The position numbers and the translations under genes are program-made. DNA of 28,055 bases, taken from a virus. Location of the stretch: IMG/VR virus record IMGVR_UViG_3300030098_005157, positions 1 to 28,055 of that record. The stretch is one strand, 5' to 3'. Below, piece after piece: positions 2,286-28,055 of the stretch. Below the pieces are notes generated by a model. The model worked only from the letters and a program-made list of their open reading frames with translations, was not told the origin of the DNA and did no database searches. Position 1 is the stretch's first letter; every line of letters starts with the position of its first letter.

Positions 2286-4154
2286 TCACCGTCCTTTCTT
2301 TAGCTTTCGCAGCCCTGCGACTGCGGTTTTTGCATCGTAAACACCACCAATTATGTAGGCCCTGGCTTTGTCAAAGACCCTTTCGTTTCTTCTATCCATT
2401 TGCTTTAGCCGGTGTTGACAGTGCTCTTCGCCGTCTGGCGAAAGCCAAAGCAAAGGGCAGTAATGAGACAAAAGGGAATAGACTTCCTCGGCATCGTCGT
2501 CGCCAAAGGCAATTGCCCCGGAGACTTTGCCCTTCTTTAGAAACTCTTCGAAGTCTTTGAGGCTATCGCCATAAATATGGGGTACTTCGTCTTGTCTTTG
2601 ACCAACAATAACGGAGTCAGCCATCTCGGCAGTCCAGCCATTAAAATGGGCCATAACAACAACGTCAGGATCTTGATCGGCAATTGCTAGGGCAGCAGCA
2701 AAGCAGGCATCCCTAATTGCTTCACAAGAAGGGGAAATATCTACAAGGATTAGCTTGAGGCCGGCACCCTTTTCTTCTTTGCGAGCAGAAGAAAGCCTCA
2801 TGCTCTTTCCAAAAAGCTCTTTGGCAAGCTTTCCACTGTGGATTCGGGGCGTTTCCTCGGCACCAATGCCAACTTCGTTGGCAATAAAGAAACCAGTAAA
2901 GTGCTCGGCAATCTTGCGGGCCTCAGCTTTTACTTGTCTCTTCTCTAGAGTTGCTTTGTTTTTGTCGATGTAACCACCAGGGCTTCCATCTCGGAACGTG
3001 CTTTCCCTTGAAAAGCCTGACCCTGGTTCAGTGTTTAGAAATTGATCATCAAGCCCATCGGAAAGCTCTGCCGAATTGATTAGGCTTTTTAAATCTACCT
3101 TTGTAGGTGGATTGGTAATCATCGACTGATTCCCCGCTACCCTTCGGCCCTTTGCCCCCGAAAGGGCAAAGGTACCGAAAGAGAAGGGGTTATTTAGGGG
3201 TGAGGATACATCCCCCAGGGGTTCGTCAAAGCCAGCAGTAACTGAGTCCATAGCTCCGTCAAAAGTCTTTCCTTGCAAGGCAGAGGGTAGTTTCTTTGAG
3301 GGCAGCGTCACACCTGACTCTGGCAATTCTGAAGACCCATTTATAAAGCCATTTTGTTTAGAGCTTTTTTCAGCAAAACCAGAGTGTCTCGGTCTATCAG
3401 CAGGGTTGGCCGACCCTTTTTGAAACGACCTTGAAGCATCCGAGGGATGGCTTAGTTCCCTCTTGTCACTCTCTGTTTTTCCATCAAAAGCTTTAGCCTG
3501 GGAAAGGCTAGGTTGCTCGCTTTCGCTTACACCTTGTTTACCGTCTCCAAAAGAAAGTTCCCATTTGAAACCCTCTGGGTTTCCCTCTTGAGAAAACTGC
3601 CCGTTCCTCTCCTCTGCCACGCCCGGCCCAGAATCCGTCGATTCTTTTTTGCCAGGAGAAAGGTGATCAACCCTTTCTTCAGTAGGACAGGAGTTAAGGT
3701 CAGAATCCTTAGAGGCTTCTTCTAAAGACTTTATTTGCTCATCATTTAAAGGCTCCTTTGTATAGTTCTCTTCTGTTTGTACGTTGTAATCAGCGACAGG
3801 GAATACAGCATCGGGACCATGCTTTTGAATAAGCTCATCAACCCTTTTGTGATAAGCCCAAGCTCGACCATAAACACTGTGAGTTTTTTCTCTGAGTTGG
3901 GGCAGCCAAATGGAGCCTTCCCTCAGGCCTAAATCCCTCCCCCTTGCCCTTCCATCATTCAAAGCAATCATTGAATAAGAAGGGCCAATGTCGATTCCCC
4001 CGATAGACCGGCGAAACATTATGTCTTCTTCTGTCATTTGAAGTTCATGAATAATGGCAAGGACTTGCTTCACCTCCCGAAGGGACATGTAGCTTCGGTT
4101 GAAAAAGGTTTCTAGATAACGCCTTTTCTTTAGTAGCTTGTTCCACTTAGCCAT
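2286..4154 (-). CDS. Von Willebrand A-domain protein, partner of the MoxR-like ATPase
   Basis: 622 residues; the ATG at 4154 overlaps the stop of the ATPase gene (TAATG). The N-terminal 130 residues are folded and charged (RRYLETFFNRSYMSLREVKQ). Residues about 130-420 are low-complexity, rich in Ser, Gly, Glu and Lys, and surely disordered. The C-terminal domain carries the metal-site motif DISPS (DxSxS) at about 472-476 after a hydrophobic strand (LKLILV), as in VWA domains, then Asp-rich GDDDAEEV and a helical end. In MoxR-VWA and CobS-CobT systems the VWA protein binds the substrate and the AAA+ ring remodels it. A long acidic or disordered middle is also typical of CobT-like chelatase subunits. 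The phage target is unknown. The gene is relatively AT-rich compared with the late genes. VWA assignment rests on one clear motif and on the neighbour. Confidence 0.75.
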   Translation of the reverse strand: MAKWNKLLKKRRYLETFFNRSYMSLREVKQVLAIIHELQMTEEDIMFRRSIGGIDIGPSYSMIALNDGRARGRDLGLREGSIWLPQLREKTHSVYGRAWAYHKRVDELIQKHGPDAVFPVADYNVQTEENYTKEPLNDEQIKSLEEASKDSDLNSCPTEERVDHLSPGKKESTDSGPGVAEERNGQFSQEGNPEGFKWELSFGDGKQGVSESEQPSLSQAKAFDGKTESDKRELSHPSDASRSFQKGSANPADRPRHSGFAEKSSKQNGFINGSSELPESGVTLPSKKLPSALQGKTFDGAMDSVTAGFDEPLGDVSSPLNNPFSFGTFALSGAKGRRVAGNQSMITNPPTKVDLKSLINSAELSDGLDDQFLNTEPGSGFSRESTFRDGSPGGYIDKNKATLEKRQVKAEARKIAEHFTGFFIANEVGIGAEETPRIHSGKLAKELFGKSMRLSSARKEEKGAGLKLILVDISPSCEAIRDACFAAALAIADQDPDVVVMAHFNGWTAEMADSVIVGQRQDEVPHIYGDSLKDFEEFLKKGKVSGAIAFGDDDAEEVYSLLSHYCPLLWLSPDGEEHCQHRLKQMDRRNERVFDKARAYIIGGVYDAKTAVAGLRKLKKGR

Positions 4155-5047
4155 TACGAAGCCCTCCTAAAGCGGACGATCTCCGACCAACTGCCAGCAA
4201 CTTCTTTGTGCAAATCACTAGTCTTCTTCTCTGAACACAAAGCAATAAAGCTACGAGCCTTCGAAGACCGGGCTGCCCACTGAGAAAGAAGAATGAAAAT
4301 GTCGTCTATCGACTCAGCCAAATAAGAAGCTGAGGTAATGAGGCGAATGCCCTCCTGGATAGAAAGAGACTCATTGTTTTCAGAAGAGGCAACCCGGCGA
4401 GCTGCTTTCCAAAGAAGCTTACAAATACCAACCGGAATCCCCGACCGAGTATGAATCAAAGCAATCTGGGTTTTTACATCCAAAGGATTCATGACAAGCC
4501 GGCAAAACCTACGGGTTCCGGCTTCGGTCAAATCCCTCTGTTCATTTGAAGTAGCAACAACAAGGACATTATTGAGGTTTGTTTGTAGGTGAACACCGGG
4601 CTTGATTGGCACTCGACCAGATTGCAGCCAATCCAAAAGCAAAGACTCGGTGCGCTCCATAGTTTTATCAAGCTCATCAAGCAAAAGGACAACGCCTTTT
4701 TCTTGACTAAGCTTTGCAACGCGAGCCAAAACCCCATCCTGCCGAACCGAAGAAGCGTCCCCAGAAACAGCAGCAGAAACATCTACGCCAACAAAAAGCT
4801 CATCGGCATCGGACCAACTGTGGCACTGATAAACAACAAGCTCAGAAGAAAGAGCTTTTGCTACGGCAGCAGCAAAGGCTGATTTGCCGGTGCCGGGAGG
4901 CCCCATAATAACCATTGCTTTTGCACCAGCCTTTTGGTCAACAAGCAAAAGTGTCCCCGCCAAACCAACAATGTCAGTTCGGCGGGGAATGTAACCTGTT
5001 TCTCTGATTCTCTTTTCAAGGTCATCGAGGGTAAAGCCGAGCTGCAT
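4154..5047 (-). CDS. MoxR/CobS-like AAA+ ATPase
   Basis: 297 residues from ATG at 5047; the start overlaps the stop of the upstream gene (TGATG), and an in-frame GTG lies one codon earlier. Walker A is GPPGTGKS (about 48-55), Walker B LLLDELD (about 121-127), sensor 1 VVATSN, and an arginine pair GTRRF follows. DELFVGVD after the first helix-strand unit fits the MoxR/CobS group. The C-terminus has the helical lid. Such ATPases form hexameric rings that remodel a partner brought by a VWA protein, which is the next gene. Some phages (N4-like ones among them, as I recall) carry MoxR-VWA pairs of unknown role. Function as an AAA+ ATPase is secure; the substrate is not known. It is cytoplasmic, with no signal or membrane segment. 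Confidence 0.92.
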   Translation of the reverse strand: MQLGFTLDDLEKRIRETGYIPRRTDIVGLAGTLLLVDQKAGAKAMVIMGPPGTGKSAFAAAVAKALSSELVVYQCHSWSDADELFVGVDVSAAVSGDASSVRQDGVLARVAKLSQEKGVVLLLDELDKTMERTESLLLDWLQSGRVPIKPGVHLQTNLNNVLVVATSNEQRDLTEAGTRRFCRLVMNPLDVKTQIALIHTRSGIPVGICKLLWKAARRVASSENNESLSIQEGIRLITSASYLAESIDDIFILLSQWAARSSKARSFIALCSEKKTSDLHKEVAGSWSEIVRFRRAS

Positions 5048-5256
5048 CACTCACCTCGCTTGTCAAAAAGAAGGGTGATGGGGTTCTCGGAATCGTCAAA
5101 GAAAATATCCATCTCTTCTTCGTCAATGCCGAGGTAAATGCTGGCATTAGAAAGAAGGACAGTCTTTCTTGTTGGGATTTCCTCGTTCAAAGGGGGAGGA
5201 ACGGTGATGCAAAGAGGAGAAAAAGGGAAAGAAGAATCAAAGTAATCTTTGGACAT
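5047..5256 (-). CDS. Small acidic protein before the ATPase
   Basis: 69 residues, ATG at 5256 overlapping the previous stop (TGATG); its own stop overlaps the ATPase start. Not recognised. The sequence is Pro/Ser-rich at the start (SSFPFSPLCITVPPPLN) and acidic later (GIDEEEMDIFFDDSENP). Strict overlap on both sides says it is translated with the AAA+/VWA genes and may be part of that complex. Its negative charge would also fit a DNA mimic or an adaptor; neither can be shown from sequence. Confidence 0.7.
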   Translation of the reverse strand: MSKDYFDSSFPFSPLCITVPPPLNEEIPTRKTVLLSNASIYLGIDEEEMDIFFDDSENPITLLFDKRGE

Positions 5257-7299: not shown

Positions 7300-7480
7300 A
7301 GACTTCCAGCTTATTGCAGATGCCTTGAAGGCAGGCTTCGAGGATTACTCAAGCGATGAGTATCAAGGCGTTAAGAAGATGGTAATTGGGTCTATGGCTC
7401 AGTACCTGATGCACACCAACAAAAACTTTGATGCCCCTCGGTTTATCCGAGCTTGCGAGGGGTGGGAGAAGGAAGCATGA
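7289..7480 (+). CDS. Small unknown early protein
   Basis: 63 residues from the ATG at 7289 (MTRKDFQLIADALKAGF...), inside the end of the preceding gene; GGGG lies eight bases upstream. The frame is open upstream to 7250, but those residues look out-of-register. The text 'KDFQLIADALKAGF' followed by 'MVIGSMAQYLMHTNKNFDAPRFIRACEG' is like small phage proteins that carry a 'DF..iA..l......NprFd...F..aC' pattern. No function is known for these as far as I can recall. Confidence 0.74.
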   Translation: MTRKDFQLIADALKAGFEDYSSDEYQGVKKMVIGSMAQYLMHTNKNFDAPRFIRACEGWEKEA

Positions 7481-7749
7481 GCATCGAATGGTTCGACAGA
7501 AAGAGTGGTGCGCCAAGGATCAAAGAAGCCCCTGGTGGTGGATACATGACGGTCTTTGGGACACCAGATTGGGTGAAACTTCCTAAGGAATTAGGAGGTG
7601 GAAAGAAGAGAATCTTGAGAGAGAAGCGAGCTGTCTGTGTTTGTGGAGACAAGCACATCGTCAAGCACTTCGAACTTGAGGACAACCTTGGAGTAGCTGA
7701 GTGCAGTGAACTCGGCTTCGCTTGGTACATGAGAGAAGGAGGTGCGTGA
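7477..7749 (+). CDS. Small protein with CxCGxxH motif
   Basis: 90 residues from the ATG at 7477 (ATGA overlap with the preceding stop; GAAGGAAG before it). An upstream in-frame start at 7453 would overlap the former gene more. It contains VCVCGDKHIVKHF (about 53-65) with another Cys at about 76, so it may bind a metal. The small protein at 12457 has a similar C-x-C-G-x-x-H string. Not otherwise recognised. Confidence 0.7.
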   Translation: MSIEWFDRKSGAPRIKEAPGGGYMTVFGTPDWVKLPKELGGGKKRILREKRAVCVCGDKHIVKHFELEDNLGVAECSELGFAWYMREGGA

Positions 7750-10593: not shown

Positions 10594-11703
10594 ATGGGAG
10601 TTAATCAACTTCAAGCCCCAGGACACGGGGCAAGAGGACCGGGTGGTCTTAACGATATGGCCGCCAAGATTGAGCACGCGAAAGGAAAGCTCGCAAAGGT
10701 TTCGACTAGGTACCTAGGAGAAGACCGGCTTGCTGCCCTCGCCATCTCTATCTGGTCAAAGAACAAAAGGCTGCAAAGCTGTAGCCCAACAAGCTTTCTC
10801 CGAGCCCTCTACGAGGCTTGCCAGCTTGGCCTTGACCCTACTGGTGTCGGCAACCAGGGACACATCGTTGCCTATCGTGGCGAAGCAAAGTTCATCAGAG
10901 GATGGGGCGGCGTCGTCACTATGGCGGCTCGCCGGGGTATCAACATCGACACCTTTGCTGTCTATGACTCTGACGAGTTTGAGGTTGCCCGATATGCAAA
11001 CGACAAAGGCTACTTCCTCGGGCTGCACCACGTTGAAAAGCGAGAAGACCCAGAGGCTCTCGGGAATGTTCGGGCTGCTTATGCCGTAGCTTCTTGCAAG
11101 GATTGGGAGCAGCCGATGATTGAGGTCGTCTGGCGGCATGACGTAGAGAAGATTCGAAAGAACTCTGCCTCACCGAATAGCCCAGCATGGAAAGAGTGGT
11201 ACTCCGAGATGGCCCGCAAGACTGCGGTTAACCGACTCGCCAAGCGACTGCCTCTCTTTGTCGAGGTGAAGGAACTTAACGACGAAGGCAAGGTAGAGAA
11301 GCGAAGCGTAGCCATTAACTCTGTCCCATACGAAGACACTTACTACGATGGCAGCGTCGGCAATAAGCAGATTGATGCACCCATTCATGGCGAAACCATC
11401 GAGCATCAAGCAGCCCCGAAGCCCCAAAGCAACGAGCAGCTTTCTGCAATCTCTGACGCACTAGAGCTTAGGAACGAGTCTCCAGATATTTATGCCCAGG
11501 TATTTGGTCGTAAGGACATTACGAAGATGGGCCGAGACGAGTTGTTTTCCTTGATTGAAAAGGTCAAGCAGCTTTCCATCGCTGCCGCCCAGCACGCTGA
11601 GCGGGAAACGGTTGAGCACAAGCAGTCCGTTGAGATTCAGTACAACGACCGATACCCAGAAGGAAACAAGAAGAACGATTACGAGGAAGAGCTAGGTTTT
11701 TAA
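10594..11703 (+). CDS. recT: RecT-family single-strand annealing protein
   Basis: 369 residues from the ATG at 10594, just after the nuclease stop, with AAGGAG seven bases upstream; the open frame to 10537 lacks a ribosome site. The core (about 20-235) shows RecT features: LAALAISIWSKNKRLQSCSPTSFLRALYEACQLGLDP, then HIVAYRGEAKFIRGWGGVVTMAARRG, and PAWKEWYSEMARKTAVNRLAKRLP. The C-terminal 120 residues are variable and charged. RecT proteins coat single-stranded DNA and anneal complementary strands, acting with a 5'-3' exonuclease, here the preceding gene. The stop codon opens the 5' arm of a hairpin that starts the structured region before the next gene. Confidence 0.94.
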   Translation: MGVNQLQAPGHGARGPGGLNDMAAKIEHAKGKLAKVSTRYLGEDRLAALAISIWSKNKRLQSCSPTSFLRALYEACQLGLDPTGVGNQGHIVAYRGEAKFIRGWGGVVTMAARRGINIDTFAVYDSDEFEVARYANDKGYFLGLHHVEKREDPEALGNVRAAYAVASCKDWEQPMIEVVWRHDVEKIRKNSASPNSPAWKEWYSEMARKTAVNRLAKRLPLFVEVKELNDEGKVEKRSVAINSVPYEDTYYDGSVGNKQIDAPIHGETIEHQAAPKPQSNEQLSAISDALELRNESPDIYAQVFGRKDITKMGRDELFSLIEKVKQLSIAAAQHAERETVEHKQSVEIQYNDRYPEGNKKNDYEEELGF

Positions 11704-11872
11704 AGGGTGGGTTTCCTAAAGTCCTTCGTATTCGTGCCTACCCTTTAGCGGCGAAGCTTAGTCGCACTCGCCGCGCATTTTCCACGAGTCAAAGGCTATG
11801 CCTGCCGGGGGTTGAGAGTTTCCCCTCTCAACGGTGAACGGGCTTCCTGCTTGAAGGAAGCCAACCCCGGCA
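11701..11872 (+). ncRNA. Structured RNA leader with a perfect three-way junction
   Basis: Reads as RNA with five stems. Hairpin A: 11701-11711 with 11737-11747 (11 bp, one wobble). Hairpin B: 11748-11754 with 11768-11774 (7 bp), directly abutting A. Then a closed three-way junction: P1 TGCCGGGG (11803-11810) with CCCCGGCA (11865-11872); P2 GTTGAGAG (11811-11818) with CTCTCAAC (11825-11832), loop TTTCCC; P3 GGCTTCCT (11841-11848) with AGGAAGCC (11855-11862), loop GCTTGA. Each junction stem is eight perfect pairs; linkers are 0, 8 (GGTGAACG) and 2 (AA) bases. An unstructured CAACCAACAACAA spacer then leads to the ribosome site. There is no T-run, so it is not a terminator. The P2 loop TTTCC is complementary to GGAAA at 11893-11897 over the start region. 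I do not recognise it as a known riboswitch or ribozyme. Confidence 0.72.
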
Positions 11873-11896
11873 CCAACCAACAACAAGGAATAGGAA

Positions 11897-12241
11897 ATGG
11901 CTGAACACACATATTCAGATTATTGGAACGCTGTAAAAGGGTTTGCCTTTGATGCAATCGAGGAGGCCCTGGACAGAGACGACGACAAAGACTTCTACGA
12001 GTTCATTGACGAATGGCTGCACAACTTAGTCGATGGCTCTTACTGGGTTATCTATACCCATGCTGCGACGAAAGTCATGCAGTACACAGACCACGCCAAT
12101 GCCTATTGGGATGTACTTGGCGAAGATGTGAGTGCCAGCTCTTGGTCTGAGCTTGTGAGCAAGCTTGCCTACTTTGCCCATGAGCAAGACATCAGGGACA
12201 GGATTAACGTCGAGCTTGAGAAAGAAGAGATGGTGCCGTGA
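11897..12241 (+). CDS. Conserved-looking phage protein of unknown function
   Basis: 114 residues; AAGGA and AGGA both precede the ATG. Acidic and aromatic (TYSDYWNAVKGFAFDAIEEAL, then DEWLHNLVDGSYWVIYTHAATKVMQYTDH). The 'WLHELVDGHEWVIYTYKA..VL.YSDN' pattern is one I recall from small proteins of many phages and mobile elements, without a known function. It is the first gene after the structured leader, so it and the next genes may be controlled by it. Its stop overlaps the next start (GTGA). Confidence 0.8.
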   Translation: MAEHTYSDYWNAVKGFAFDAIEEALDRDDDKDFYEFIDEWLHNLVDGSYWVIYTHAATKVMQYTDHANAYWDVLGEDVSASSWSELVSKLAYFAHEQDIRDRINVELEKEEMVP

Positions 12242-17862: not shown

Positions 17863-20800
17863 CTACTTATCATCGGGGATGTAGAAAAGACTAGGGAGTT
17901 CGTCGCTGTCTTCCTTCTTGGGCGAAACTTTCATTGCTTCCTCACCGCCGACATAAAGCTCTTTCTTCAGTCGGTCCATCTGCACATCAATCGGGATGCC
18001 TTGGTTGCGGTAAATCTCCTTGAGCCTTTTGAGCATCAGGTATTCGTACATCGCCAGTGCTGAATCAAAGTCCAGAGCTGTTGGCTTTAGGCCCAGGAAG
18101 TAAGCAAGGGCACGCTCCCTGTCGGTGGCAAGAGCATCGGTGTCGCCCATGTCCACTGACCTCGACATAAACGTGTCCTGGACTAGCTTCATGTGCTCTC
18201 GCATTACCCGGAAGCCAGGGAGCTTGCTGACAAGGTAGAACTGCGCGGGCTTTTTAGACCTGTATTCGTTCCTCCACTTGCCGGTCCACTCTCCGTCTTT
18301 GTTGTAGACTTTTCGCCGGCTTGTCGGGACAGCCTTGCCATCGTCGTCAACTTCCATTCCGATAAACCACTTAAGAAGCGGAGGAGCGTCTTTGTACGCC
18401 CGGATGTTGTTGATCTGCTCCCAGCCCTTTCCATAGTAAAGGGACTTGTTAAACGCGGCTTCTGCCATCGTCAGAGGGATTGGGTTCATTCGGGTGAGAG
18501 AACCAATCGGCATAAAGCCGTGGTCTTTTCTGGCTAGGAACTCAATCGCAGCCTGCTGCGGAATGCCGTGAACTCGGAACATTCTCCCTAGCCCGGTGCG
18601 GACAACAACCTGCCACCGCATCTCCTGGGGCATCGCCTGGATTTCTTCTTCGGTGAATTGCCCGTTGCCAACTCCATTGATGAAGCTCTTGAGGACAACA
18701 AAAGACCGTGGGTTCCTCACCATCTGGCGAAGCTGGAACCTCATGTTTCCTGCATCCCAGGTGTAGAAGAAGAAGAACCTTCGGAGGTAGTGCCGCTCAA
18801 ACGGAGTGAGGTGGCCGTAGTTCCTCATGGCGTCATCAACAAGAGTCGAAGCCTCTTGTACCGTTTTGCCTTTTCTCATGAGGCCAACGCCAAGAGTGAG
18901 CCTCGCCTGTAGCTCGATGCTTGAGTTTAGGTTAGCCATCATCCTCATGTACGAGGGGAACGACATGCCGGCAATTGCCGTGGTGACAGCCGCCGTTGGC
19001 CCACCAAAGGTCGATGCAATCGCGGCAGATGTGGTTAGGCCGACAGCCCTTTCGCCCCAGTACATGATGAAGTTCTTGGGGTTCTCTTTGTCCTTGCCGA
19101 TTGGGATAGCGGCGTTTTCCATGAACTCGCTGACTTCGCTTTGCCAAACCTTCCTAAAGCCAGTAGCAACTCCCTTCGGAATCGAACGACCCCTGCGAAG
19201 CCCAGAGCTAAGGACCTCTGTCCCAAGCGCTCCAGCAGCCTGACCAAGGAAGAAGCCAGCCGCAGCCCCAGCAGGCCCAGCAGCAGCCATACCGGCAGCA
19301 GCGCCGAGCCCACCACCAACACCGCCGCCAATAAGAGACTGGTACAGAGGAACGTCTGTCTCTCTCGCCGCTCCGTACATCTCTTCTGCATAGGCAGATC
19401 CTCGAAGGCTTTCTGTAATAGCCGTTTCTTCTTCCAGAATCCTTCGCCAGTCGGCAACGGTTTCTACGCGGCCACCAAGCCTAAGCGGTTTGTCTTTGAC
19501 GAGCTGCCAGCCCTTTGAGCTGTAGTCCATCATCAGACCCATAGCCAGCATGTGATTAACAGGGTTGAAAGACCCCAGTCCTAGCTGCTGAAGGATAGAC
19601 AAGTAGTTGCCAGCGAAGTTCATGCCGATATGGGCAAGACCTACGATGGTGGCCTGACTCTTTGCCACTCCGGTAAGGCCGTCGAAAACGCCCATGAAGT
19701 AGCTGCCAGACGCCGGGTCTGGAGAGTTCATCCACCGGATGTATTCCACGGCAGCCGTTGGCAGATAGACATCAGGGAGGTTAAAGGCCCTGACAACGTT
19801 TGCATCTACATTGACGCCTAGCTGGCGAAGCGAGCGAACGATAAGACCAGGGTCTTCCCCACGAGCCAGCCTAGTGACGATTAGCTCCTTGAACTTTCTT
19901 AGCTCAGAAGGAAGCTCCATTCGCGCCGTTGCTGCAATCGTGTCCTCTGCCGTAAGCCGAGAGTACCCATACTCCTTAGCCTTCATCTCTGACCAGGAAG
20001 CAGGGTTTTCCGAAACAAGCCGAGCAATCTCCTTCCCCAGGGGGAAAAGGTCCTGCATGTCCCGGATAAAGATGGCGTCAGCCACCGCTTTGTTGGTTTG
20101 CTGGCCGTAACGCTTAATCAAAGTACCTAGGTCAGTCTCAAAAAAGTCGTAGATTTCGTTGAGGTCAGCCTCTTTTCGGGCCCACTTGATTGCTTCGGAC
20201 CACTCTTCTGGAGAGAAGAGCTTTTCTAGGTCGTTGCTGTTTACCGCAGCCGAAAGCTCATCAAGCTGCTGGACTGAAACGAAACGCTGGAACGGCCCGT
20301 TGTCGCCCCACCCTGGGCCTCTCTTTGTGCTTGCGATGTGGTACAAAATTTCCGTAGCCAAGTCGTCCCTGGCAACTTCATTGATGTCTTCCAGGAACGA
20401 AGCCTTTGCTCGGAACTTCTCCGACCCAAGCTTTGCGTCCTTCGGCATGAGGCCACGGCCTCGCAGCACGGCAACCTTTCTTCTGGTTGTGGTGCTTAAG
20501 ATATGAGGGACATACGCGGCAAGGTTCACTCGCGACAAGAACTCTTCTTTGCCCCAGGGCTTCTCCAGCTTGTTTTCTCTTAGGTAGGTAATTCGCTCTT
20601 CGAGGATTTCGCGAGCGCTGGTTCCTTCATCAAGCTCGTTTGCCTGCTTCCGAAGGTTCTGGATTTCCTTGAGGACCTTCGGGTCAACAGTCTTAACCAG
20701 CTTGCCGGCAGCTTGCATTCTCTTTAGCTGCTCGCCCAGGAAGTCATCGACAAGCTCTGCCACCTGCAAGGCTTGCTCAATCTCATCCTTAGAGAAAGCT

Positions 20801-23800
20801 GCCCCAACCCTTGATCGGCCAGCCTCTTTTCGGCGTTTGCCCGCCTTGAGGCCAAGGCGCAAGTCCTCGGTTCCGACAAGCCCTAGCTTTGCAGCAATTC
20901 GCTTAGCTTCTGGGCTAGCGTTCTTGCCGACCCCGTAGAGGCGCTTGTTCGGGTCCTTGAGAAGGCGCATGATCTTCTGAATCTCATCAGAGGTCATCTC
21001 CCTCAGAATGTCTGCCGCCTGAGACTTTTTAAACGTATCGACCGCCACCTGCTTTTGCAGTTCAGCGTAGTCGCCGTAAGCACGAGCTTCTTTCCTGAGA
21101 GAAATAACCTCACGCCAAACCTGACCAGGAGTTCTGAAGTCGTAGTTCAAGAGCTTTGCCGTAGCCATAAGCTCTTTAGAGAACTCTGGGTACTGCTCTA
21201 GAATTTTTGTCAGGCGGTCGGCCTCTTTGACCGGAGCAATCTTTAGCTCAAGGTCGCGCTCGCTTTGCCTTAGCCTCTTGATTTCATCTTCGATGTTTCG
21301 TCGCTCAAGAGAAGACGGCTGTAGCGGAGCAGCTTTCTTTTCAAGCGCCTGGATCTTTCGCTTAATCTTTCCAGCCTGGGCTCGCACAGAGCCCTTCTTT
21401 GGCAGCGTGGCCTTAGCCCTAGGCTCAACGCCAGTCAAAGCCCTGGAGGCTGTGGAGAGGGCGTCTGAGAGGGCGTCTTCGGACGCAACGCCAGTGCCTC
21501 CTCCGATGTCCATGTCCCGAAGAGCAGGAAGCTCATCGTAAGCAGCGGCGCTTCCAAACTTCTTGCCCTGCCTCCGAGCAAGAATCAGCTCTTTTCTAAC
21601 AATGTCCTCAAGGTCAGAGATTGCCCCGTCAATCCACTCCAGGGTCTTAGCTGCCTTCTTCTGCTGTCGAGCCGTAATCTTCTTCTTCTTTGAAGAGATT
21701 TCGTTAGCCACCTCAAGGGTGTCTTCAGCCGCAACCTTTGCCTGGGCAAGCTCTTCAAGCTTAGACTTGGCTTCGAGCATCCACCGCTTAACTGCCGTGA
21801 AGTCGCGAGCTGAAATCAACTGCTTGATGCTCTTCCCGCGAACCTCTGGCTCAAGGCCAGTCCTTTCGGCAAGCTCTTTAGTTAGCTTTTTTAGCTTGAG
21901 TTCATCCCTTGCCGTTCCGGTCCTTGCCTTGTCCCACACAGAGTTAGGCAGCTCTGGGTCCATTGCCTGGATGTAACGCACATCTTCTGGGTCAACGCCT
22001 TTAGCCGAAATCTTCGGGATTACCACTCCCTGCTGGTCTGCGTTTCGGCTGTTGAAGGTGGCCGCAACTTCCTCAATCCACTGCCTCCACTGCTCGCTTC
22101 GAGAGGCTGGCTTAAGACCCATGAACTTCGTAAGCTCGCTTCCTCGGTAGAGCTTGAAAATCTCATTAACGAGTGAAGCAACGTCGTCCTCACCCAACAG
22201 GGTGTTGCGAACAATGTCTCTAATCAGAAGTTTCTTGAACTGAGCAACCCCGCCTCTGCCCTTCTTAAACTCAGAAGGCGTTGGCGCTTTGAACCTACGA
22301 AGTCTTTGCGGAGAGTGGTACCTGCCTGCGGCCTTGTTGCTTGCTTCCTGGAGGGTTTGAAGGGCAACGGACTTTGTTGTTGCGCTTTCCGACAACGCCA
22401 TCTTTACCGTCTTGGCAATCTCTTCGTTGGTGTAGCCTACGCTCTTCATCAACCGTTGGATTGAGTTGCGATAGGCAGCTCCAGAGAACAGCCTGGATAC
22501 GGGATCTGAAAGCTCATACGCCCGCTGAGCTGTCCTGACCTCAACTGAAAGAGGGCTTTCCTCCAAGGCTCTGGGGTCGAAGATGCGGTCAAGAACGCCC
22601 TTGATGTCGTCCGACACCGTGAAGGTTTCTACCCCGGCATCTCTCAGAATCTGCATCTTCTGAGCGTCAGACATTTTTTCAATTTGCTCAGCCGTATACT
22701 TCTTCTTTTGGTGTTTCTTTGCGAGCTTTTGCAGATTCTTAGTTGAGTAATCAACAGGAAGGGGAGAGCCATCGGTCGGGAGCAAGACTGCGCCCTTAAT
22801 GCTTCTGCCCTTCTTGTAGTAGGCGTAATAAAGGGTTTTAACCCAGTCCTTGAACTGGACGAAAATCTTCTTAATCCCAGCAGACCGATTAACGATGTCT
22901 GGGAATTCTCCAGTCTTCATGTACTGGACGAACGCATTTGCAAACGCCTCTTCGGCAATCGTGTTCCACTGACCATCTTTGGCAAAAGCTTTGTCGCCAA
23001 AGTTTCTCCGAGCCCATTCGTTCGCAATCTCTTGGTCGCGCTTGCTCAGGGTTGTTCGGAAAAGGTGTCCAGTCTCATGAATGAAGGTCGTGAAGTCGCC
23101 CTTCTGCATGATTTCAATGATTCGAGCCCCGTCTTTTGAATCATGAAGGAAAGTCCCCAAGACATCGTAGCCGTCTTGCTTTGCATCAAGCGCGTACTTC
23201 GGAACGCCTTCTTCGCGAATCTTGCTCTTCTGAGCATCGCTCATCGAGACTTTGTAGAAGTCCGCTCTATATGGCCTTCCCTCTACGGTGTCTTTCGCTT
23301 TTTTAATCAAGCGAGAGACATAACTTTCCTGGTTAGACGGGGGGATAAACGAGTCAACAACGCTCCACTCAACAGCCTCGTCACCTCTAAGCTCTGCAAC
23401 CGACATCAAGCGCTGCATATCGTCTCGTCTAAAGAGTGCCCTTCGCTTTACATCGTCAGCAAGCCTTATGCTGGCCTTATCTACTGGATATTCGCGAGTC
23501 CCGAGATTAGAGCTGTCTAGAATTCCCAAGAGGAACGTGTCGATTTCGTCCTTATAAATACGACCAGTGCCGTAAGGAGCGTGAGAAAGCTTGTTCTCTA
23601 TGGCTTTGTACCTGTTGTAGGCAGAGCGAATTTTTCGGTAGTTTTTACTAGCAAAAGCTTTCTTAAGATTTTCCCCTGCTCTTCTAAGCGGAACAAAATC
23701 GCCAGCCAGCATTTCCCCAGAATCTCCTGGGCCTCTCTCCATAGCTTTCGCAAGACCGCTGTATCGGCCTTTATCTACCCCTGATTGAGAAAATTCATAA

Positions 23801-26800
23801 ACTGCCCCCAGATCCTTCGCCCCAAACTTATTTGGAAACTGCGAAGCCAGCTCTAAAAGGTCGTCAGTTGTTTTTGCAGACTTTGCCTTTTTCCAGATTT
23901 CTTCAACTTCAGGAGAAGAAAAAAGCGACCTAGGCGGCTGGGCATCGGAAGCGAAAGGCCGCCTTAAGAATTCGTTAAACTTTTTCGTTAAGCGGTAAAG
24001 GTCTTCAGGAGAATCCGAAGCAATTTTGCTAGCCCTCATCGCCATCGGGTCATCTTCGTAGTCGATGAACTTGACCTTAGTGTCGGAGCCTAAAGTGCGT
24101 ACCAGTTCTTTCCTAATCTTTTCATCATAAAGAACCTTCGCTGGCTTTTTGGTCATCCGGCCAGACTTAGCCCTTCTTCGGCCACCCTCCCAAAGTATTC
24201 CGTCAAAGTTGTTTTTAACTGCATGATCAACAAGCGACCTTGTAGCTAGTTTTTGCCAGCTTTTTTTGTAAGGAACATTCGGGACAGGAGTCTTTTCAAG
24301 GGACGTTGAGCCAAGCCTTATTGCCTTGCTTGAGGATTCAACTATTTGCGGCCACAGGAATCGAAGGTCCTCGATGTATTCGCCTTGAATAAATGGGAAT
24401 GAATCTGGCCCAGCGTTTTCCTCTACAAACCGACGCAACCTTTCTTCGGGAAAGGCAGAGTCAATCGACCTGTTTTTGCCGTTAATAAAGTTAGAGACTT
24501 CTTCAGCTAATATCCCTTCAACATCAGCAGCAACTGACGGAGTTAGCTTTGCGGCGTAAGCCGCGTCGTTAAGAGACTCAACAACAGGAATCCTAACGCC
24601 GTCAACAGGGTCGATATAGCTGGCTTTTTGAATTATTTCGGCAGCGTCGTCTGGGTCGAAAAGGAATGGAGCGCGAGCAATTTGCTCTTCGCTTCTCTGA
24701 TAACCCGCTTTCTTGGCAGTGCCGTGAGCATCGCTCTGAATTTCTAAAATTCTTAAAAGCTTCTCCCCAGTGTCTGGGTCGATAACCGTGTCAAAGCGAA
24801 CATGAAGAAAGATGTTGGGGCTGTACTCATACTTCTTCACGATCTCTTCGCCGTAGTGGTAAAGCCCAGTAGCTTTGTCTACTGAAACTTCACCCGGCAA
24901 AAGGTCGTCAACCGAGAACGTCATCTCGGTGTATTCCTTGCCAGGAAGCCCTCTGATGTAACCCGGAGTCCCTGGATTTGTCTCTGGGCTAACGTAACCT
25001 GGGTCGTATTTGTTGGCGAAATGACCTGCGTCTGCGTTTCCTCTTAAGGTTTGGTCTTCGGGGAAAGAGTCAGCAATTTTCCCTAGTTCAATGTAGGCGG
25101 ATTGGCTGTCGAGAAGCTCTTTGTTTGATCCAAGCAAAGGTGCTCGGTCAGCCGGAATGTAGCTTTCATAGACAGCCGGCTCTCCAGAAGCAGATTTGCC
25201 CTCAACCCAAACTCGAATTCCCTGCTCAGGCTTTTGCCCAAGGCCCTTTTCTCTTGCAGAAACTAAGGCGTCATAGGATTCGTCCAGTGTATTAAGGCTC
25301 TCTAGGACACCCACCCTGTTGGGGCGGTCAAAGTGCCCGGTGTCAATCACTAGCTCACCAACAGGGTGGCGGCTATCAATGATAGTTATCCTTGGGCGCA
25401 TGGAATCTGCAAAGTAGTCAAACAGTGCAGTGCTTGTTAGGCCGTAATCATCCAGGACGTTTACAGATTCTTCGACGGTAAGCAGCTTCCCATCAATGTA
25501 CACCGCTGGGAAATTCCCAAACTCATCAGGAACGTCGCCGCCTTCAACTAGTTCTTTCCAGAAATTGCTTCTGAAAAAATCAGTGAGGGCGTCATCAGCG
25601 CCAACCGTAACAAGGTCGTTAACCTCGACAAACCCATCGTCTATCGGATTGAATACATGTGGCTCTTCATCAAGCTTTGTTACTCGAACTTCGTTCGGGT
25701 AAAGAAAACCCTCGTCAAAGCGACGAGGAGTAGCGCCCTCTGACATAAAGTAAACGGGGTCGTATTCCCTTTGGGCCTTAACGATCTTTGTCATCCTCGG
25801 CCACTCACCCCTAACGAAGTCTGGGGTGGTTTCTTGGGGGGCGCGAAGGCCTGCAAAAATACCCCTGCGCGCTTCTTCGCTTAGAGATGAAAGATCAACA
25901 CTAACGTCGGGGGTACTTTCGACTCGGACAGACCAGGGCCGAGTGTTTGCCTCAACAAGCTCAATCAACTCATCTTTTGTAATGCTCTGATAATCGTCTA
26001 GACCAGGGATAATCGAATCAGCGATTTCCTCCTGCTTTACTCCGAGCTTTTGAGCCTGCTTTCCACTAAGGAAATCTTTGAACTCGCCAACTGTCTTGAA
26101 GTTAGGAGCTTCTCTAAGCGCGTTTAATAGAACAGAGTAGAAACGGGTGCTGTCATTCGGGTTAAACGGGTTTAGCTGCCTCAAAGCGCCAGCCTCAGCG
26201 GGAGCACCTGGGTCCTGAGCCCTTACCTGAATGTTCATCTCGGTGAAGTAAGCTGGCGCGTACTCCTTTGGCACCCCTTGATTGAAGGCCCATGCCTCAG
26301 CCGCAAGCCTGTACATCTCCTTAATCGCTTTAACCTGGGGAGGAGAAAACTTATCCGGCGACTTGAATGAGAGGCTTTCTACGGACTCATTGAACGCCCG
26401 CTGCGTTGCCTTCCACTGGCTGAGGTCGCCAGCAGGAAGCCGGCCTGCTGCCTGGGCATTCTTTACAGCCGACTCTGGGTTCTTCGTCCACTCAGCAGAC
26501 GGCCCCTGGGGAAGATAGATTTCGTCCAGAGTCTCGCCCATAGAAAGGCGCACCAACTCAAGGTTCTTCAGAGCCTCGTCTAGGTTTTCGCTTTGATTCC
26601 AGACCTTGTTTTTAACCAGCTCTTGCAAGCCATCTCTAGCTTCTCGGAGCATTGCAATCCGGTCAACGATAGCCCCGGTTTGCTCGAAAGCGCCGAGCAT
26701 TGCTTCTCGCCTAAACGTCTCGCCCAGAGTGTCGGCCAAGGCCGTGCGAATCATTCGGATGTTGTTGGTCGCATCAGCCAAGAGCTTCTTGCGAGCTTCT

Positions 26801-28055
26801 TTTGCCGGGAGAGGATTGCCGGCAACATCCATGACAACAGTGTCGTCAGCCAGCCCTCTGGTCGCCTCTAGCTCCCTTGAGAGAGTCATGAGCGAATCGC
26901 CAATGTTTGCGAACTCAGCGGCAGCGTTTAGGTCGTCAAGGAGAGACTGGGGAATATCCGAGAGGTCGCCGTCTAGAGCGCGGGAAACAATTTGTTCAAC
27001 ATTAGTTAGCTTCGCAAAGCCTTCGATTGCTTCTTCGGACAAGGGCATGTGACGACCCAGCTCAGCAAGCTGCAACGCAAGCTGCTGGACTTCTTTGTCG
27101 TCTGTAATTGCATCAATCCTTCGAAGGAACTCAGCAACCCTGGCAGTGTCAACAGCCCTCTTTCGAGCGTTCTGCATGTCCAGACGCTCGACCTGCTTGA
27201 ATCGAGCAGGGTGCAGCACCTCGTCCTGGCTAAGCTTCCTTGCTTCAGACTTAAGGCCAGTGACGTAAGGCTGCGCCTTGTCGATGTTGAAAATGCTGGA
27301 AGCGCGCCTTCGAGCCTTGTCGGCTCGCAAGGGAATGATTGTGCCAGTCGCCCAATACCCAAATCTAGACCGAAGTGCGTCTGTTGAAGAAACAACCTTG
27401 GTGGCCTCGTAGGCAGCGTTTTTACTTTGCTTCGGCGCTTTGGGAGGGTCGGACCACTTTACCTTGCCAACCCACTTTGGCTTCCCAGCCGCGTCTGCCC
27501 CAACCATTGCGGCCTCAAAAGAAAAGAGCTGCTTCTTTTTCTTAGACTCCTTCATCAAGTAAACCCAAAGAGCCTCGCCTTGAAGGGGGCCAGCGTTCAC
27601 AGTGTTGAGCGGTATGTTGTTTGTCTTGATGTAGTCCTGGACTGCTTCGGCAACGCCGCCCGCAGAGTTGTCCATCATCTGCCTAAGCTGCACTGCTTGA
27701 TCAATTCCGTAAACGCCGATGCGCCCGTTTCTGAAAGCAGTGTCAGTGGCAGCAATTACGTCTGCGGCTACCGACTCATTGGCCTGCTGCACGGCCATGC
27801 TCCGCGCTTTTTCCGGCGACCAAGCGTTCTCGCCCTTCTGAAGCTTTGAGTTAATGTCCTGGAGATACTGGGCTGTTCTTTTGGCAACTTCGCTGCCGAC
27901 AGCTTGAGCACCCTTCCTGGTCATTGTGATTCCGAACTTAGCCGGAAGGGCGATAGCCTTTACGGTCGCACCTGGGAGGTTAAGGGGGTCGAGGATTGCC
28001 GAGTTGACAGTGCCTACAAACTCCCTTCCTCCACGGCTCCCCTGGTCCCAGGCTC
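17863..28055 (-). CDS. Giant polyvalent phage protein with zincin motif, N-terminus beyond the window
   Basis: The frame is open from the stop (TAG, 17865-17863) to the right edge, at least 3,396 codons; an ATG at 27924 is internal by all signs. Residues below count from that Met. About 900-1200: a domain with EIQSD (1061-1065) and later VPYKKSWQKLATRSLVDHA, a pair I know from phage polyvalent proteins, where the 'EIQSDW' region precedes 'PFK..W..L..K'. About 1616-1620: HETGH, then EEAFANAF, FPDI and FKDWVKTLYY, a zincin-type metallopeptidase domain of these proteins. About 1780-2400: charged helices and coiled coils. About 2700-3250: NFAGN, a Gly/Ala-rich hydrophobic stretch (2865-2910), and RRFFFFYTWDAGN, typical of their C-terminal membrane-type region. 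Such proteins are thought to be packaged in the virion and injected with DNA. The actual activity is unproven. Confidence 0.85.
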   Translation of the reverse strand, partial: AWDQGSRGGREFVGTVNSAILDPLNLPGATVKAIALPAKFGITMTRKGAQAVGSEVAKRTAQYLQDINSKLQKGENAWSPEKARSMAVQQANESVAADVIAATDTAFRNGRIGVYGIDQAVQLRQMMDNSAGGVAEAVQDYIKTNNIPLNTVNAGPLQGEALWVYLMKESKKKKQLFSFEAAMVGADAAGKPKWVGKVKWSDPPKAPKQSKNAAYEATKVVSSTDALRSRFGYWATGTIIPLRADKARRRASSIFNIDKAQPYVTGLKSEARKLSQDEVLHPARFKQVERLDMQNARKRAVDTARVAEFLRRIDAITDDKEVQQLALQLAELGRHMPLSEEAIEGFAKLTNVEQIVSRALDGDLSDIPQSLLDDLNAAAEFANIGDSLMTLSRELEATRGLADDTVVMDVAGNPLPAKEARKKLLADATNNIRMIRTALADTLGETFRREAMLGAFEQTGAIVDRIAMLREARDGLQELVKNKVWNQSENLDEALKNLELVRLSMGETLDEIYLPQGPSAEWTKNPESAVKNAQAAGRLPAGDLSQWKATQRAFNESVESLSFKSPDKFSPPQVKAIKEMYRLAAEAWAFNQGVPKEYAPAYFTEMNIQVRAQDPGAPAEAGALRQLNPFNPNDSTRFYSVLLNALREAPNFKTVGEFKDFLSGKQAQKLGVKQEEIADSIIPGLDDYQSITKDELIELVEANTRPWSVRVESTPDVSVDLSSLSEEARRGIFAGLRAPQETTPDFVRGEWPRMTKIVKAQREYDPVYFMSEGATPRRFDEGFLYPNEVRVTKLDEEPHVFNPIDDGFVEVNDLVTVGADDALTDFFRSNFWKELVEGGDVPDEFGNFPAVYIDGKLLTVEESVNVLDDYGLTSTALFDYFADSMRPRITIIDSRHPVGELVIDTGHFDRPNRVGVLESLNTLDESYDALVSAREKGLGQKPEQGIRVWVEGKSASGEPAVYESYIPADRAPLLGSNKELLDSQSAYIELGKIADSFPEDQTLRGNADAGHFANKYDPGYVSPETNPGTPGYIRGLPGKEYTEMTFSVDDLLPGEVSVDKATGLYHYGEEIVKKYEYSPNIFLHVRFDTVIDPDTGEKLLRILEIQSDAHGTAKKAGYQRSEEQIARAPFLFDPDDAAEIIQKASYIDPVDGVRIPVVESLNDAAYAAKLTPSVAADVEGILAEEVSNFINGKNRSIDSAFPEERLRRFVEENAGPDSFPFIQGEYIEDLRFLWPQIVESSSKAIRLGSTSLEKTPVPNVPYKKSWQKLATRSLVDHAVKNNFDGILWEGGRRRAKSGRMTKKPAKVLYDEKIRKELVRTLGSDTKVKFIDYEDDPMAMRASKIASDSPEDLYRLTKKFNEFLRRPFASDAQPPRSLFSSPEVEEIWKKAKSAKTTDDLLELASQFPNKFGAKDLGAVYEFSQSGVDKGRYSGLAKAMERGPGDSGEMLAGDFVPLRRAGENLKKAFASKNYRKIRSAYNRYKAIENKLSHAPYGTGRIYKDEIDTFLLGILDSSNLGTREYPVDKASIRLADDVKRRALFRRDDMQRLMSVAELRGDEAVEWSVVDSFIPPSNQESYVSRLIKKAKDTVEGRPYRADFYKVSMSDAQKSKIREEGVPKYALDAKQDGYDVLGTFLHDSKDGARIIEIMQKGDFTTFIHETGHLFRTTLSKRDQEIANEWARRNFGDKAFAKDGQWNTIAEEAFANAFVQYMKTGEFPDIVNRSAGIKKIFVQFKDWVKTLYYAYYKKGRSIKGAVLLPTDGSPLPVDYSTKNLQKLAKKHQKKKYTAEQIEKMSDAQKMQILRDAGVETFTVSDDIKGVLDRIFDPRALEESPLSVEVRTAQRAYELSDPVSRLFSGAAYRNSIQRLMKSVGYTNEEIAKTVKMALSESATTKSVALQTLQEASNKAAGRYHSPQRLRRFKAPTPSEFKKGRGGVAQFKKLLIRDIVRNTLLGEDDVASLVNEIFKLYRGSELTKFMGLKPASRSEQWRQWIEEVAATFNSRNADQQGVVIPKISAKGVDPEDVRYIQAMDPELPNSVWDKARTGTARDELKLKKLTKELAERTGLEPEVRGKSIKQLISARDFTAVKRWMLEAKSKLEELAQAKVAAEDTLEVANEISSKKKKITARQQKKAAKTLEWIDGAISDLEDIVRKELILARRQGKKFGSAAAYDELPALRDMDIGGGTGVASEDALSDALSTASRALTGVEPRAKATLPKKGSVRAQAGKIKRKIQALEKKAAPLQPSSLERRNIEDEIKRLRQSERDLELKIAPVKEADRLTKILEQYPEFSKELMATAKLLNYDFRTPGQVWREVISLRKEARAYGDYAELQKQVAVDTFKKSQAADILREMTSDEIQKIMRLLKDPNKRLYGVGKNASPEAKRIAAKLGLVGTEDLRLGLKAGKRRKEAGRSRVGAAFSKDEIEQALQVAELVDDFLGEQLKRMQAAGKLVKTVDPKVLKEIQNLRKQANELDEGTSAREILEERITYLRENKLEKPWGKEEFLSRVNLAAYVPHILSTTTRRKVAVLRGRGLMPKDAKLGSEKFRAKASFLEDINEVARDDLATEILYHIASTKRGPGWGDNGPFQRFVSVQQLDELSAAVNSNDLEKLFSPEEWSEAIKWARKEADLNEIYDFFETDLGTLIKRYGQQTNKAVADAIFIRDMQDLFPLGKEIARLVSENPASWSEMKAKEYGYSRLTAEDTIAATARMELPSELRKFKELIVTRLARGEDPGLIVRSLRQLGVNVDANVVRAFNLPDVYLPTAAVEYIRWMNSPDPASGSYFMGVFDGLTGVAKSQATIVGLAHIGMNFAGNYLSILQQLGLGSFNPVNHMLAMGLMMDYSSKGWQLVKDKPLRLGGRVETVADWRRILEEETAITESLRGSAYAEEMYGAARETDVPLYQSLIGGGVGGGLGAAAGMAAAGPAGAAAGFFLGQAAGALGTEVLSSGLRRGRSIPKGVATGFRKVWQSEVSEFMENAAIPIGKDKENPKNFIMYWGERAVGLTTSAAIASTFGGPTAAVTTAIAGMSFPSYMRMMANLNSSIELQARLTLGVGLMRKGKTVQEASTLVDDAMRNYGHLTPFERHYLRRFFFFYTWDAGNMRFQLRQMVRNPRSFVVLKSFINGVGNGQFTEEEIQAMPQEMRWQVVVRTGLGRMFRVHGIPQQAAIEFLARKDHGFMPIGSLTRMNPIPLTMAEAAFNKSLYYGKGWEQINNIRAYKDAPPLLKWFIGMEVDDDGKAVPTSRRKVYNKDGEWTGKWRNEYRSKKPAQFYLVSKLPGFRVMREHMKLVQDTFMSRSVDMGDTDALATDRERALAYFLGLKPTALDFDSALAMYEYLMLKRLKEIYRNQGIPIDVQMDRLKKELYVGGEEAMKVSPKKEDSDELPSLFYIPDDK

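Follow-up and report, generated by a model that had tools for sequence, protein, structure and literature searches.

What is the structured RNA that appears to be encoded in the gap between recT and the next gene of an uncultured virus, and does it serve that next gene? The locus lies in a stretch of DNA of 28,055 nucleotides (the window, below) that makes up positions 1 to 28,055 of the IMG/VR record IMGVR_UViG_3300030098_005157, a virus record of 48,514 bases. Portal and terminase proteins are encoded in the other part of the record, and it is on these matches that the identification of the source as a probable tailed phage rests. The initial annotation of the window, made from the sequence without database searches, had described three perfect stems closing a three-way junction, two abutting hairpins ahead of it that start on the recT stop codon, and an unstructured spacer with a ribosome site behind it, and had read the whole as either a regulatory leader or a phage small RNA, matching no riboswitch or ribozyme known to it.

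The locus and its fold in the window

The surroundings of the RNA in the window represent a recombination operon (Table 1). No sigma-70 promoter pattern, intrinsic terminator or T-run was recognised around the RNA in the window, in agreement with the T-run having been reported as missing, and the ribosome site does lie outside the predicted structure. The stems P1, P2 and P3 are exact as first drawn, perfect 8-bp helices, all of them part of the predicted minimum-energy fold of the window. The segment 11690-11900 folds at -83.1 kcal/mol, compared to -65.3 +/- 4.6 kcal/mol for dinucleotide shuffles (z = -3.9, none of 200 shuffles being as good), and the segment 11702-11872, taken by itself, yields a z of -4.5, with none of 150 shuffles as good. 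The significance of the folding energy is not uniform among the relatives described below, with z near zero for L042 and L012, and thus it is covariation, not folding energy, that bears the case. Both upstream hairpins are present too, the first one starting inside the recT stop codon, but they are not equivalent: the first (hairpin A) is conserved, while the second is replaced in other members by short or different hairpins and is dispensable.

Table 1. Features of the RNA and its flanks, in window coordinates.
Feature	Position	Strand	Remarks
recT	10594..11703	+	Upstream gene in recT-containing members; Pfam RecT, E 1.8e-30
recT stop codon TAA	11701..11703	+	From the sequence; hairpin A starts on it
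Hairpin A	11702..11746	+	11702-11711 pairs with 11737-11746; 25-nt loop 11712-11736
Helix K, 5' strand AUUCGUG	11730..11736	+	Hairpin A loop; immediately precedes the A 3' strand
Optional hairpin in third loop of pseudoknot	11748..11774	+	In predicted window fold; not conserved
Helix K, 3' strand CACGAGU	11783..11789	+	Same covariation tests as the 5' strand
Linker CARNGGCUAUNCC before P1	11790..11802	+	UAU and CC invariant in 10/10 members
Three-way junction	11803..11872	+	P1 11803-11810/11865-11872; P2 11811-11818/11825-11832; P3 11841-11848/11855-11862
Junction strand J2/3, GGUGAACG	11833..11840	+	Near-invariant, 10 members
Junction strand J3/1, AA	11863-11864	+	Near-invariant, 10 members
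Shine-Dalgarno-like AAGGA of downstream gene	11885..11889	+	From the sequence; ~12 nt 3' of P1, outside the structure
Gene for 114-aa acidic, all-helical protein	11897..12241	+	Neighbour, not a required partner

Elsewhere in the window, a single ORF of 3353 aa occupies positions 17863-27924 of the minus strand, and a 622-aa ORF (2286-5050, minus strand) adjoins an AAA_5/MoxR-like ATPase, an arrangement that recalls chaperone pairs of the MoxR type. In the rest of the record, a short stretch of Ns (XXXX in translation) is found just past the window end (G000:C1 ~28004-28400; L138:5-400).

Relatives of the RNA and covariation of its helices

Protein searches with the 114-aa gene product and with RecT led to related viral contigs, whose post-recT gaps contain a common DNA motif despite differing downstream genes, and a pattern for the P3 region added contigs with the same motif near quite different genes (L031/L043, L036). 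With duplicates removed, these represent nine distinct members (the window, L033, L027, L025, L024, L042, L026, L031 and L036), and a junction covariance model trained on the nine recovered each of them, along with a tenth, L012 (58.9 bits, E = 3.6e-12), absent from the training. The member set thus consists of ten distinct sequences, of about eight clearly different lineages, all from IMG/VR, with one copy of the RNA per record, as judged from records searched whole.

Further pattern and protein scans of viral records uncovered no more true members: the matches to relaxed patterns were mostly due to chance, and the L050-type sequences, while alike by eye, were rejected by the covariance model. 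A pattern scan of bacterial genome contigs produced 48 matches, all ascribed to chance: none has the fold, and most lie in coding-like sequence. Likewise, when the covariance model was run on GTDB genomes, 385 from the group of a Roseibium and 292 from that of a Synechococcus, a single match was returned, L179; scored with strict filters and judged to be a chance one, it falls where an ORF resembling purM by eye begins. A DNA search of cultured phages gave no match, and neither did the covariance model on all of MW202692 and most of MK613349, both terminase relatives. The RNA is therefore rare in the collections searched and was seen in virus records only.

The junction was tested on a ten-member alignment (A6) covering 23 pairs, against 500 shuffles and by five measures. 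In A6, 87.1% of the cells are paired and 13 of the 23 pairs have changed on both sides, with the count for P1 being too low, as MAFFT places its 3' strand one base off, a register that we corrected by hand. None of the 500 shuffles reaches the A6 value on any of the five measures, and when the partners are slid by 1-3 columns, the pairing signal collapses. Compensatory changes were found for all three helices. In P1 a core of about 6 bp is conserved, and the two outermost pairs form together in just the window, L031 and L036. Variation is greatest in P2, in which seven of the eight pairs covary; this helix is missing from L025, L027 and L012, and is dispensable. P3 is paired in every member, in the versions UU/AA, CA/UG, UA/UG and CC/GG, and one of its pairs is G-U in eight members and G-C in two. 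On the opposite strand, such a G-U would read as an A-C mismatch, and so the functional form is the plus-strand RNA.

The part upstream of the junction was aligned by hand for the ten members, each segment being checked against the loci. Hairpin A is paired in 94 of 95 cells, with 35 both-side changes (none of 10000 partner swaps as good), retains G-U pairs, and its stem beats local shuffles in nine of the ten members. In all ten, its start lies between -6 and +11 nt relative to the first base of the stop codon of the upstream gene. Helix K, the pairing of the hairpin A loop with bases ahead of the linker, was missed by the initial annotation, which treated the two upstream hairpins alike. K is paired in 54 of 60 cells of the hand alignment, with 28 both-side changes, and examples are AUUCGUG/CACGAGU in the window, GAGAUGG/CCAUCUC in L025, and CGCAAUGG/CCAUUGUG in L031. 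Because the helices had been picked by eye, the test was repeated in a constrained form, with fixed short windows and with the best helix chosen alike for own and swapped partners, across eight distinct members; of 100,000 permutations, 26 match the real pairing. In L026 the case is weak, for K as well as for hairpin A. With no bases between the K 5' strand and the A 3' strand, the covariation shows the whole RNA (~11702-11872) to be, in its predicted form, a long H-type pseudoknot and a three-way junction joined by a conserved GGCUAUNCC linker. The invariant or near-invariant unpaired bases are the UAU and CC of the linker and those of J2/3 and J3/1.

Changing neighbours

As to the genes around the RNA, the upstream gene is recT in seven members, a gene for a 138-aa protein in two, and a gene for a 108-aa protein in L012. 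Downstream, at least six unrelated genes are found across the members: the 114-aa family, a 167/176/351-aa family (grouped by eye), a PAPS-reductase-like gene, genes for 109-aa and 149-aa proteins, and a zinc-finger-like gene, with no consistent class, and no consistent association with metabolic or transport genes, among the members compared. Moreover, the 108-aa protein of L012 is a homologue of the product of the gene at 11897, here standing upstream of the RNA, and the family of this gene is present in other viruses that do not have the RNA. The spacing varies as well. In seven of the ten members, a short CA-rich spacer and a ribosome site follow directly after the RNA. In L024, a tRNA-Met (CAU) with an encoded CCA (L024:2170-2246) begins about 12 nt after P1, before the next gene, and in L033 and L026 the RNA is separated from the next ribosome site by an extra structured RNA module of about 120 nt. 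In all three, the spacer has stayed with the downstream gene, so that the RNA behaves as a module in its own right. The RNA is, in short, independent of the genes that flank it, and a leader dedicated to the gene at 11897, one of the two roles first proposed for it, is unlikely.

What does remain constant is strand and position: in every member, the RNA is found on the coding strand and is always intergenic, and an opposing operon is met after about 1.0-4 kb of further co-directional genes, as judged from seven loci. No terminator-like site was found after the RNA within the plus-strand operon, and the frequency of such sites is not above chance.

Three coding explanations were also rejected. 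Protein coding across the element is not compatible with the distance between the conserved blocks, which shifts the frame, or with the changes in P3, which are compensatory. A readthrough or frameshift pseudoknot would extend the upstream gene, and the extension frames are not conserved (9-53 aa in frame, 1-67 aa in -1 and 1-37 aa in +1). A mini-ORF, GUG-AAC-GGG-CUN-CCU-GCN-UGA, spanning J2/3 and P3, is present in most members, broken in L012 and not preceded by a ribosome site, and we read it as incidental to the conservation of the RNA.

The 114-aa protein itself, for which no Pfam or PHROG match was found, is strongly acidic (26 D/E versus 8 K/R) and has a confident all-helical predicted model (pLDDT 85.8), with no PDB match to the predicted fold at E <= 0.001. 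Its DGSYWVIYTHA core is common to otherwise different viruses. That it may be a DNA mimic is a guess.

Known RNAs and the possible role of this one

A comparison of the window to Rfam 15 gave no match at the gathering threshold and just 12-bit chance matches at E <= 10, and for five homologous loci there was no credible match except for the tRNA. In particular, neither the EAR/epsC model (RF01735) nor the models of self-cleaving ribozymes match the window or the homologous loci, and a short literature search found no description of this RNA. The RNA is thus new. It is unusual both in architecture and in its independence from neighbouring genes, and with covariation in all of its helices, the view of a structured RNA unlike known riboswitches and ribozymes has held up. 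Discoveries of new orphan structured RNAs have precedents, with 104 reported in a single study (PMC2864571).

The noncoding RNAs of phage PhiKZ, of about 100-180 nt, structured, originating from intergenic or UTR regions and detected by Northern blot (PMC8545117), are of similar size and origin, a likeness of description; they have two stem-loops, some being terminator-like hairpins, while the RNA here has no terminator-like hairpin. In common with UTR-derived phage noncoding RNAs, it is intergenic, structured as judged by covariation, and has no conserved coding frame. The manA and wcaG RNAs, structured RNAs of marine metagenomes and phages, precede diverse genes in cyanophages (PMC2864571); unlike these, the RNA here has no Rfam match and no consistent metabolic gene association.

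The reading that we prefer, tentatively and with somewhat less than even confidence, is that of a noncoding RNA that acts autonomously after release from the transcript of the early operon, and the small phage RNA of the initial annotation is, to this extent, still plausible. The RNA would be transcribed with the rest of the early operon, a few genes ahead of the opposing one, its fold would protect it, and it would be released from the polycistronic transcript or outlast its decay, while its conserved unpaired bases would bind a partner that does not vary, for instance a protein of the host or the phage. With no dedicated promoter or terminator recognised, release by processing is an assumption. 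In L024, the RNA would probably be severed from the downstream message as the tRNA-Met matures. Independence from both the identity and the spacing of the downstream gene argues against a dedicated leader, and the PhiKZ RNAs, as a precedent (PMC8545117), count in favour of an autonomous RNA. Counting against it are the seven members in which a ribosome site comes directly after the RNA, a placement typical of a cis element, and the small size of the member set.

Such a cis element, acting on the nascent RNA or the mRNA whatever gene follows, would either modify RNA polymerase or block exonucleases, setting the ends of mRNA segments at the 3' end of the upstream gene. It would fit with an RNA that is always on the sense strand, intergenic, abutting a stop codon, present in one copy per record and independent of its neighbours, and precedents exist. 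The put RNAs of phage HK022 (putL and putR), of about 70 nt, with two stem-loops, are found near early promoters (PMC9378689), and they resemble the RNA here in being phage-encoded, structured and independent of gene identity, with no protein dedicated to them. The EAR/epsC RNA likewise contains a pseudoknot, with antitermination activity reported (PMC2864571). However, the RNA here is larger than put (~124-171 nt), combines a pseudoknot with a three-way junction, and stands late in the operon, whereas put RNAs, which bind RNA polymerase and suppress termination, lie just after early promoters and ahead of terminators; this position near the operon end, with no terminators downstream, argues against a put-like antiterminator (PMC9378689). 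EAR belongs to other genes and hosts, and in addition to its model being unmatched, no operon terminators were found here. We thus consider a cis element somewhat unlikely. Decidedly unlikely, in our view, is a portable riboswitch-like element, or a protein-bound translational regulator, placed before varied cargo genes, even if the same seven members have it immediately 5' of a ribosome site, the pseudoknot and the junction with conserved unpaired bases are as in aptamers, and manA and wcaG set an example (PMC2864571): the class of the downstream gene is inconsistent, a tRNA or another RNA of about 120 nt intervenes in three of the ten members, and no expression platform was recognised in the predicted window fold, which has no terminator and does not sequester the ribosome site.

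An undescribed self-cleaving ribozyme cutting the operon transcript is very unlikely. Small ribozymes (hammerhead, HDV, pistol, twister and others) share with this RNA junctions or pseudoknots and conserved cores, and conserved junction nucleotides with no fixed gene association in phages are a pattern of such ribozymes, but the covariance models of none of them match, no cleavage site can be assigned, and the junction strands, of 0, 8 and 2 nt, are unlike those of the hammerhead. Least credible of all is an element acting at the DNA level, such as a single-stranded origin or a recombination site, or else a patch marking a boundary of gene exchange. The swapping of genes on both sides among the relatives and the recombination operon of the window would suit it, but G-U pairs are kept in P3 (eight of ten members) and in hairpin A, the loops are conserved while the stems vary, which fits an RNA fold, and no integron-like boxes were seen by eye.

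RNAs of such tertiary organisation, with conserved unpaired bases, usually bind a ligand or a protein, or catalyse. Extending the autonomous noncoding RNA to a new class, with its own biochemical activity, is possible if doubtful: it might be a trans-acting RNA for host takeover or counter-defence, or a new ribozyme, kept by an uncultured phage lineage while the surrounding genes were exchanged. Retention of the RNA while neighbouring genes swap would point to a function in infection at the RNA level, not to the regulation of one gene, and the consensus, together with the ten members and the evidence for each helix, presents a compact target for assays.

A second, smaller RNA, an H-type pseudoknot of the form RCCGC-ACAGG-GAGGCAC-A-GCGGY-GGCUGUAUCAG-GUGYCUC, was noticed in L033 (~7310-7365), in L026 (minus strand), and in L003 (~3505-3560) and L004 (~7612-7668), the latter two not carrying the three-way-junction RNA. 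It directly precedes the ribosome sites of three unrelated genes, and one of its pairs is compensated (GCCGC/GCGGC versus ACCGC/GCGGU).
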